Shown in pieces: positions 3,650 to 63,178 of a DNA stretch of 64,000 nucleotides. How positions within the stretch are numbered: position 1 is the first letter of the stretch; the number at the start of each line of letters is the position of its first letter. Location of the stretch: positions 236,018 to 300,017 of the forward strand of contig NZ_KB892438.1 in the NCBI RefSeq assembly GCF_000373805.1, in the 5' to 3' direction. The position numbers and the translations under genes were made by a program. Source of the DNA: Corynebacterium pilosum DSM 20521 = CIP 103422 (GTDB lineage Bacteria; Actinomycetota; Actinomycetes; Mycobacteriales; Mycobacteriaceae). Below the pieces are notes generated by a model. That model worked only from the letters and a program-made list of their open reading frames with translations. It searched no databases and had not been told where the DNA came from.

Positions 3650-3741
3650 AAACTGTTGGATCTGAACTGTTGGAACAGGGGCGTTTGAGGGTCCCCAGTG
3701 GCTAAAAACGCCCAGTTCCAACAGTTGAGCTTCAGCAGTTT
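3650..3741. repeat. Palindromic intergenic element, family 3, copy A
   Basis: 92-bp hairpin element. The left arm (3650-3676) contains AACTGTTGGA twice and the right arm (3715-3741) contains GTTCCAACAGTTGAGC. A second copy with nearly the same arms, same orientation and almost the same length (91 bp) lies at 41596-41686, while the centres have diverged. That marks this as a dispersed family whose arms are conserved. Confidence 0.85.
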
Positions 3742-41595: not shown

Positions 41596-41686
41596 AAACT
41601 GTTGGAGCTGAACTGTTGGATTAGGGACCAAAACTGCGGATCCGCACCAAAAATCCCCCTGATCCAACAGTTGAGCTTCAGCAGTT
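41596..41686. repeat. Palindromic intergenic element, family 3, copy B
   Basis: 91-bp hairpin. The left arm AAACTGTTGGAGCTGAACTG continues to 41621 and the right arm spans 41662-41686 (ATCCAACAGTTGAGC...). The centre contains GCGGATCCGC, extending the hairpin almost to its tip. Arms match copy A at 3650-3741 closely. Confidence 0.85.
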
Positions 41687-42513: not shown

Positions 42514-42604
42514 CAAACCGGTATAGTCCTCGGACCATACTGCAGGATGCCAAAAGGTTTTCAGTAAGTTAGTCGCACTATGCAGCGAGGACTATATCGG
42601 TTTG
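42514..42604. repeat. Palindromic intergenic element, family 5
   Basis: 91-bp element with 19-bp arms CAAACCGGTATAGTCCTCG (42514-42532) and CGAGGACTATATCGGTTTG (42586-42604), 18 of 19 matching as inverted repeats around a 53-base centre. It lies in the spacer between a secreted-protein gene and eno. One copy only in this window. Confidence 0.75.
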
Positions 42605-47093: not shown

Positions 47094-47156
47094 GCGGTCG
47101 ATGGATCTTGCTAAAAGGCGGGTTTTGGGCCTGGTTTTGCAAGATTCATCGACCGC
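47094..47156. repeat. Palindromic element, family 2, downstream of the DUF559 gene
   Basis: 63-bp hairpin starting GCGGTCGATGGATCTTG and ending GATTCATCGACCGC. It starts 4 bases after the nadC stop and ends 10 bases before the DUF559 gene's stop. A nearly identical direct copy lies on the other side of that gene (48140-48201), and an inverted copy at 63116-63178. Confidence 0.9.
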
Positions 47157-47166
47157 GGGGAGGGGG

Positions 47167-48051
47167 TCAAAACTGGAAATGGCGGGGCAGCGGGCGCAGA
47201 GGCTCGGGGTAAGAGTGCACGGCGCGCTCCACCATCCTGATGAAGGGGCAACTACCCTGTGCATCCGGCTTCATATCGGCCCACTTCGCGCGCCTGATCA
47301 CAAAACCGCAGTTCTGGATCAGGTGCTCCCGGATCCTCTCCTGAACCACGGTGTCAACAGGGTCTTTGCCATAGACCATCGTGTACTTTGAGCGTCCATC
47401 CAGCTCCAGCACGAGGAAGCCGTTGATTAGGATGTCGGCATAATAGGTGACTAGCTGCCCGGTCTCGGTAATAATGGTGATCTTAACCTCATACTCAATG
47501 CTATGAATCCAGGGAAAGTTGCCGGTCAGCAGGCGATACCTTCCCACCGACTCTAAAGGGCTGCGCGTGGAGGCCTCACTCATTAAGATCATCTCCCTCA
47601 ACCCCGGCACCCCGCTATGAGAGGGGTAATCGTCGGCAAGCGATAAAAAGCGTTCCTCGGTGATCTGGGGGCTGCGGGCGCGCAGCGAGTCAAGGACGAC
47701 GAGGGAGTCGAGGTCGCCGTAGAGTTTCTGGATGTGCAGCAGCGTGGGAAACAGCGGGGCGAGCCTAAAGCCGTTCAGTATTTTGACCTGGCTGGTTGAG
47801 ATGAAGCCGGTGGTATAGCGCCTGCTGTGCTTCCAGCGCGAGCGGGCGGGGGCGTTGACGCCGTCGGGGTGGATGAGGTCGAGGGTTGTGAGCGGCGTGT
47901 AAGTTTTTAGGCCGCGGATCCGGGCGCCGGCGAGGCCTGTGATCGCGGCGGAGCGGAGTCCGCGGTAGTTTGCTGTGATGAATTGCAGCTCGGCTGTGCT
48001 GAGTGTGCCGTCTGGATTGCCGTAAATGGGTGTTAGCGTTTGTGTTTTCAT
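47167..48051 (-). CDS. DUF559 (Vsr-like nuclease fold) protein, AbiEi-like layout
   Basis: 294 residues. The N-terminal winged-helix-like region (LSTAELQFITANYRGLRSAA, ITGLAGARIRGL) and middle region resemble AbiEi-type proteins; the C-terminal DUF559/Vsr-like nuclease domain has Glu in SPLESVGRYRLL, Asp in YYADILINGFLVLELDGRSK with a D-x(n)-E-x-D pattern, and ERIREHLIQNCGFVIRRAKW. Enzymatic activity is unproven for this group. ATG 48051 is chosen; upstream frame to 48135 crosses a DnaA-box-like palindrome. The gene is bracketed by two direct copies of a hairpin repeat. Confidence 0.75.
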   Translation of the reverse strand: MKTQTLTPIYGNPDGTLSTAELQFITANYRGLRSAAITGLAGARIRGLKTYTPLTTLDLIHPDGVNAPARSRWKHSRRYTTGFISTSQVKILNGFRLAPLFPTLLHIQKLYGDLDSLVVLDSLRARSPQITEERFLSLADDYPSHSGVPGLREMILMSEASTRSPLESVGRYRLLTGNFPWIHSIEYEVKITIITETGQLVTYYADILINGFLVLELDGRSKYTMVYGKDPVDTVVQERIREHLIQNCGFVIRRAKWADMKPDAQGSCPFIRMVERAVHSYPEPLRPLPRHFQF

Positions 48052-48102
48052 ACACACAGCATGAGGCACGGCGCGCGGGGCCGCAGACAGCCCTAAAAAA
48101 CC

Positions 48103-48127
48103 TGTGGATAACTCGGAGTTGTCCACA
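48103..48127. promoter_or_regulatory. Inverted pair of DnaA-box-like sequences
   Basis: TGTGGATAA (48103-48111, a perfect DnaA box) and TTGTCCACA (48119-48127, one mismatch from TTATCCACA) face each other 7 bases apart. It could be a DnaA site or simply an operator of the DUF559 gene, whose start is 52 bases away. Confidence 0.45.
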
Positions 48128-48139
48128 AAACTCATAGGC

Positions 48140-48201
48140 GCGGTCGATGGATCTTGTTAAAAGGCGGGTTTTGGGCCTGTTTTTGGAAGATTCATCGACC
48201 G
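48140..48201. repeat. Palindromic element, family 2, upstream of the DUF559 gene
   Basis: 62-bp hairpin, a direct repeat of 47094-47156 with only a few differences, located between the DUF559 gene and the dnaG stop codon (10 bases away). Confidence 0.9.
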
Positions 48202-63115: not shown

Positions 63116-63178
63116 GCGGTCGATGGATCTTCAAAAACAGGCCCGAAAAGGGGCGTTTTAGCAAGAAAGATCGACCGC
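63116..63178. repeat. Palindromic element, family 2, solo inverted copy
   Basis: 63-bp hairpin from GCGGTCGATGGATCTTC to AAGATCGACCGC, the reverse-complement relative of the two copies flanking the DUF559 gene 15 kb away. It lies between era and pdxY, with no nuclease gene near. Confidence 0.88.

Follow-up and report, generated by a model that had tools for sequence, protein, structure and literature searches.

Background

To our knowledge, REP sequences and their RAYT genes are the one well-described case in which bacterial palindromes have a dedicated enzyme gene that they flank. The RAYT is an IS200/IS605-like tyrosine transposase, and the REPs are 20-40 bp long, end in a GTAG/GTGG-type tag and are present in tens to thousands of copies, with solo copies dispersed in the genomes that hold the cognate gene. 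As set out in two accounts, these systems comprise several gene-palindrome classes per genome, are mostly inherited vertically, and diversify in both partners (PMC3686654, PMC3733652). A second point of comparison is the EDxHD homing endonuclease I-Bth0305I, a phage, intron-type enzyme reported to form a dimer on a target just short of 60 bp (PMC3943268). Vsr repairs T:G mismatches, and a Caulobacter protein with a DUF559 domain has been described as Vsr-like in an account whose available sections do not mention palindromes (PMC12907096). Among the open-access papers listed in our searches, none connects DUF559/Vsr-like genes with flanking palindromes. Small hairpins are also discussed as mobile in the case of the fungal mitochondrial double-hairpin elements, in papers that treat homing endonucleases as well. 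These elements are organellar, and we know of no dedicated gene bracketed by each family of them.

Results and discussion

A nuclease gene between two copies of a palindrome

The gene considered here is located at 47167..48051 on the minus strand of the window, a stretch of 64,000 nucleotides of Corynebacterium pilosum, and has nadC and dnaG as neighbours. It comprises 294 codons, for which AbiEi-like and Vsr/EDxHD-like domains are predicted. The reading frame is open to 48135, the start of the longest ORF, and 48051 appears the likelier start because of the alignment with homologs and a promoter-like motif, an inverted pair of DnaA-box-like 9-mers at 48103..48127 in the presumed promoter of the gene.

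Two near-identical direct copies of a hairpin sequence flank the gene, as the preliminary description had reported. Copy A (47094..47156), on the 3' side, is 4 nt past the stop of nadC (47089) and 10 nt away from that of the nuclease gene (47167), the latter spacing being the one given earlier, while copy B (48140..48201), on the 5' side, lies 10 nt past the dnaG stop (48212). The copies are 95% identical over 62 nt and form the longest direct repeat listed for 44-51 kb; their core AAAAGGCGGGTTTTGGGCCT occurs twice in the window with up to three mismatches, against no occurrence in 100 shuffles. As single-stranded DNA both fold strongly compared with shuffles (z -8.3 and -7.0), and a T-run is absent beside both. 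Solo copies elsewhere, also noticed before, were confirmed: full-length solo copies of the 61-bp palindrome are found at 63116..63178 in the window, between genes that we take from their sequences to be a pyridoxal-kinase-like gene and era, and at C33:95104-95169. All four copies in the genome of the window (2.53 Mb; G000) are situated close behind stop codons. The genome with the closest homolog (G036) has a copy behind the same pyridoxal-kinase-like gene, and neither in the window nor in G036 does any other gene lie between the bracketing copies.

Predicted domains of the product

Searches of Pfam, NCBIfam and PADLOC with the nuclease product gave no match at E<=1. The DUF559 label first given to it was therefore dropped for the product itself and holds at the level of the family only, where five of 31 homologs match DUF559 and nine match REase_MTES_1575 at E<=0.1. 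The Vsr-like nuclease fold that had been proposed is supported by an AlphaFold model (pLDDT 86.2, pTM 0.84; 12 sequences) and its structural matches. In this predicted model, residues 164-283 (47203..47562, minus strand) form a Vsr/I-Bth0305I-like nuclease domain, for which VIA-align gives I-Bth0305I as the closest solved fold (3r3p; Z 10.8, 97 aligned residues, 2.7 A), together with 3hrl (Z 10.2), Vsr (1cw0, Z 8.2) and TnsA (Z 6.3), and weaker matches to the restriction enzymes AbaSI (Z 5.7) and PvuRts1I (Z 5.4). Residues 19-159 (47575..47997, minus strand) resemble an AbiEi-antitoxin/nucleotidyltransferase-like domain (AbiEi 6y8q, Z 9.4, 131 aligned residues, 4.0 A; MenT1, Z 7.2). Because a best Z of 7 to 8 is commonplace with VIA-align, weight was put on the matches above Z 9. 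Foldseek alone returned nothing for the model at E<=0.001, and in a profile search of PDB sequences two entries reached E<=1, an unrelated designed protein (0.21) and 3hrl (0.61). The product thus probably joins an AbiEi-like domain, assigned by fold only, to a Vsr/homing-endonuclease-like domain, and the former presumably helps to bind DNA.

In the alignment of 31 homologs, D206, E216, G219, K222 and R241 are invariant, and D218, E238, R239, E242 and R254 are conserved in at least 90%. The conserved set reads D206, E216-x-D218-G, K222 and E238-R-x-R241-E242; an E-D-H-D motif was sought, and the invariant columns contain no histidine. One weak relative was found in viral_contigs.

Three paralogs and three palindromes in one genome

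Two more genes of the family are present in G000, and all three paralogs are bracketed by different palindrome pairs. A clustering of hairpins that was blind to genes (161 hairpins from 822,757 bp of the 2.53-Mb genome) produced six clusters with 9, 7, 4, 3, 2 and 2 members. It is precisely the three largest that bracket the three paralogs, their remaining members being solo copies, and direct BLAST added a diverged tenth copy to the largest. Solo copies of both sister families are seen in the window as well: two belong to family 1 (3650..3741 and 41597..41686), which brackets the paralog on contig C7, and one to the 91-bp family 2 (42514..42604), which brackets the paralog at C1:231860-232846, a short distance beyond the window. 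Half-elements of family 2, 28-30 nt long and within ~25 nt of full copies, were also observed on contigs C1 and C2 of G000 (L287:18071-18100, L308:6632-6661 and L309:6615-6642); they look as if they were pairs or decay products.

The elements are constant in length. All ten copies of the window gene's family in G000 and G036 measure 61 nt, the ends of the element being CGGTCGATGRATC, with the outer 8 pairs invariant in all ten, the CGGTCGATGRATC-type arms and the A4/T4 blocks mostly retained, and a middle that varies without keeping pairs. The seven family 2 copies all measure 91 nt, with near-invariant arms and the ends CAAACCGATATAG. Compensatory pairing was sought as a sign of a fully base-paired structure of the 61-bp element, and such a structure is unsupported, because pairing is mostly absent at positions 23-39 and the outer 8 pairs show no variation. 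A hairpin accounts for the uniform length and the two-fold symmetry no better than a dimer on duplex DNA does. The palindrome may be, in place of a true hairpin, a duplex site with two-fold symmetry.

Distribution of genes and palindromes in Corynebacterium

Matches to the family occur in 145 of 242 genomes of the genus, with up to nine per genome. The closest homolog of the window protein, at 71% identity (the next best has 39%), is that of G036, where it is located between dnaG and mazG, with a 61-bp palindrome of this kind on either side and four solo copies elsewhere. The palindrome pattern of the window is found in two of the 242 genomes, and these are the same two that possess the close homolog; gene and hairpin thus co-vary. 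A looser search extended the pattern to five of the 242 genomes, three of them with partial matches of 18-23 nt. In the G036 stretch between dnaG and the upstream palindrome there is also a run of 19-bp direct repeats (L051:2613-2722).

We then compared homologs with other genes at 61 loci from 41 Corynebacterium genomes, namely the window, the G036 locus and 59 loci chosen as paralogs or for their homology score. At 48 of the 61 homologs a hairpin is no more than 200 bp away; the figure for the other genes on these sequences is 137 of 616 (p 1.7e-18), and two or more near hairpins accompany 18/61 and 19/616, respectively. The first 20 of the 61 loci were taken from 30 after an initial hairpin scan; six loci had been left out, three with and three without a near hairpin, and their inclusion gives 51/67 (p 2.4e-18). 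A first run, with gene starts set by the homology limits, gave 27/61 vs 89/638 (p 7e-8), and a rerun with longest-ORF starts under six settings ranged from 48/61 vs 137/616 down to 24/61 vs 41/616 (all p<1e-10), 22% of the other genes having a hairpin too at the loosest setting. All three paralogs of G000 have a hairpin pair of their own, and 13 of the 61 homologs (16/67 with the six left-out loci) have no hairpin within 200 bp. Solo copies do adjoin unrelated genes, as REPs do.

Where a homolog has several hairpins, these tend to resemble each other: within-gene pairs are alike in 12 of 20 cases (p<=0.006, judged by 2152 pairs taken between genomes), and in eight of these one hairpin lies on each side of the gene. 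Among control genes, 5 of 28 within-gene pairs score at least 17, one of them at L076, a control locus that contains a distant pair of its own nuclease's family.

The palindromes appear to be private to their genes. Whole-genome searches with five further palindromes found 3-11 places each in their own genome. That of G040 has 8 places at home, two of them short partial matches, and none in 19 other genomes; the palindrome of the second G040 paralog has 6 places (0/21 others) and that of G069 has 11 (0/21 others). The G198 palindrome occurs at 4 places in G198, 3 in G130 and 4 in G199; G069 has a partial match of 22 nt, and 18 further genomes have none. The nuclease genes of G198 and G130 are 84% alike. 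A further palindrome has 3 places each in G061 and G062, with short partial matches in 2 other genomes and none in 18. In the genomes searched, palindrome matches outside the same gene clade are short and partial only. Protein identity and hairpin similarity are correlated (Mantel r 0.40, 0/10000 permutations, a statistic that ignores the shared ancestry of syntenic flanks), and hairpins are alike in 9 of 21 pairs with at least 60% protein identity vs 3 of 1107 pairs below that value.

For 22 solo places in G069, G040 and G036 the context was recorded, and 11 are between genes and 11 inside long ORFs. Ten of these 11 ORFs were scanned; they may be spurious ORFs of GC-rich DNA, since only one contains a Pfam domain (E<=0.001), with the palindrome located ahead of it, and the other nine contain none. 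A syntenic clade of homologs (L062, L067, L069 and L195 in G017, G147, G119 and G218) comprises two loci without a near hairpin and two with mutually unlike hairpins, and is perhaps a settled, immobile branch.

Empty sites and inheritance

Empty sites were found in relatives at both the dnaG site and the solo site between accE and maf. No relative of the window protein (E<=1e-3) lies within 1.5 kb behind dnaG in any of 28 genomes, these being the dnaG ends fetched, other than those of G000 and G036, from the 193 genomes with a dnaG match; in four of the 28, mazG is within ~50 bp of dnaG. The accE-maf solo copy is common to G000 and G036 and absent from the six other genomes searched. Because these sites are empty in relatives, the gene unit and the solo copy seem to have been inserted in a common ancestor. 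Two further observations were made at these sites. In G080 and G053, another long palindrome with GCAAAACCGGCTACC arms is located behind dnaG without a gene of the family (L151:1322-1421 and L175:1317-1394), and in G036 ~0.9 kb of extra DNA, absent from G000, separates the solo palindrome from maf (L236, C1:1932405-1933296).

All four G000 copies of the window's family (family 3) have a same-site counterpart in G036, so that no recent jump is seen. No target-site duplication was identified, and the sites on both sides of the nuclease gene are intact. Eleven loci are linked by synteny, which suggests from gene order that the nuclease gene is mostly inherited in place. Some syntenic loci have differing hairpins (G092/G002, protein identity 84% and hairpin score 9; G210/G173, 72% and score 6), and G093 and G104 have a common palindrome (score 39) in unrelated surroundings. 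Palindrome copy numbers are low, and turnover looks slow.

Beyond the genus and a DnaA-box signal

In an order-wide sample, 271 of 397 genomes, representing 56 of 85 genera, match at E<=1e-15 with a wide profile that may include relatives of other function. Of the 25 best-scoring loci outside the genus, 21 have a near hairpin and 10 have hairpins on both sides. The two sides are alike in nine of these 10 (scores 29.5-51; the 95th percentile between loci is 17.5). Five genera are represented among the nine, two of them by three loci each.

The motif TTATCCACA, the DnaA-box sequence, occurs close to the starts of 25 of 61 genes of the family vs 6 of 616 others, and as an inverted pair in 15 vs 1, counts that were made after the motif had been seen in the data and with four patterns and three window sizes tried. 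Unlike the private palindromes it is common across genomes, and outside the genus it is found at one of the 25 loci. It may tie expression of the nuclease to replication.

Relation to described systems

The comparison with REP/RAYT systems, made in the preliminary description with the proviso of an unrelated enzyme, withstood the two refuting checks named there and is supported by the co-variation across genomes and by the excess of hairpins at homologs. As in those systems, the enzyme gene is flanked by its own palindromes, solo copies are dispersed in genomes with the cognate gene, several gene-palindrome classes share a genome, and descent is mostly vertical while gene and palindrome both diversify. 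In contrast to the tyrosine transposase of RAYTs, the enzyme here is predicted to have a Vsr/EDxHD fold and an AbiEi-like domain; the sites of the window's genome are 61-91 bp long and lack the terminal tag, and 3-11 places per family were found. Since neither enzyme nor repeats agree with the definitions of RAYT and REP, we set the system apart from that kind, and some may prefer to class it as a variant.

The homing endonuclease I-Bth0305I has the closest solved fold to the predicted catalytic domain, and its reported target is of the same scale as the 61-bp element (PMC3943268). It differs in that no intron or intein is seen here, a second, AbiEi-like domain is present, and symmetric sites are intact on both sides of the gene. 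The Vsr, DUF559 and REase_MTES_1575 nucleases are alike in fold and give weak profile matches, but unlike Vsr the window gene has no adjoining methylase. Likewise, the AbiEi-like domain recalls type IV toxin-antitoxin systems by its model fold only, and the window gene, next to nadC and dnaG, differs from these in having no adjacent AbiEii nucleotidyltransferase toxin gene at this locus.

A proposed role for the nuclease at its own palindromic site

The pairing of nuclease and palindrome holds as a general pattern. The explanation that we favour, and consider somewhat probable, is that each nuclease is dedicated to a long site of its own with two-fold symmetry, which it recognises and either maintains or spreads. 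Each gene would specify its own Vsr/EDxHD-type endonuclease, joined to an AbiEi-like domain. This enzyme, probably a homodimer, would recognise a private site of 60-90 bp with two-fold symmetry, copies of which bracket the gene and lie scattered elsewhere as solo copies. The site would be cut as duplex, cruciform or single-strand hairpin and repaired from another copy, which would keep the copies alike and occasionally spread solo ones. In this manner cutting and repair could maintain or move the bracketed gene, a homing-like behaviour that follows a REP/RAYT-like logic.

Inverted repeats are the sites through which AbiEi proteins repress their own promoters, and the palindromes could be operators at which the AbiEi-like protein represses its own gene, with the solo copies as a small regulon and the nuclease fold as a leftover or in another role. 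The nearest fold of the N-terminal domain, that of the AbiEi antitoxin, and the many hairpins 5' of the gene agree with this. We nevertheless judge it unlikely: the catalytic-type residues D206, E216, G219 and K222 are invariant in 31/31 homologs, 60-90 bp is long for an operator, and a copy also follows the stop codon of bracketed genes, which is unexpected for an operator, the four window-family copies of G000 all being directly behind stop codons.

It is decidedly improbable that another enzyme moves the palindromes as miniature elements and that the tendency of nuclease genes to sit between copies reflects nothing more than capture. Standard transposases commonly mobilise palindromic miniature elements, and no insertion by the nuclease was seen; such an enzyme would, however, leave the private pairing of gene and palindrome, within one genome and across genomes, unexpected, and neither the window nor G036 has another gene between the bracketing copies. 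Very little credence can be given to a nuclease-based defence or addiction module whose chromosomal palindromes are decoys, brakes or self-marks. The folds of AbaSI and PvuRts1I and the up to nine matches per genome would fit such a module, but the window product has no PADLOC match at E<=1, and at the window locus the gene adjoins nadC and dnaG rather than a methylase or toxin partner. Ordinary terminators alike by chance, which the position of the four G000 copies behind stop codons might suggest, are rejected as the whole explanation because of the private pairing and the absence from relatives (the accE-maf copy is missing from 6/6 genomes besides G036), and elements of 61-91 bp, repeated in one genome and without a T-run beside either window copy, leave this scarcely credible, although the palindromes may terminate transcription as well.

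The favoured explanation, a nuclease dedicated to its own site, can be extended to a distinct palindrome-propagating class across Mycobacteriales, an extension for and against which we see the case as evenly balanced. Here a dimer would cut its private 60-90 bp site, break repair would maintain, homogenise and disperse site and gene, and enzyme and site would co-evolve so fast that orthologs at the same locus recognise different palindromes.

Conclusions

If this explanation is true, the genes and palindromes described here would constitute a second partnership of palindrome and enzyme, built on an unrelated nuclease, and such partnerships would have arisen more than once. A function would then be at hand for many unannotated nuclease genes, with profile matches in 56 of the 85 genera sampled from the order, not all of which need behave alike. 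The family would also provide many natural pairs of enzyme and site for the recognition of 60-90 bp.
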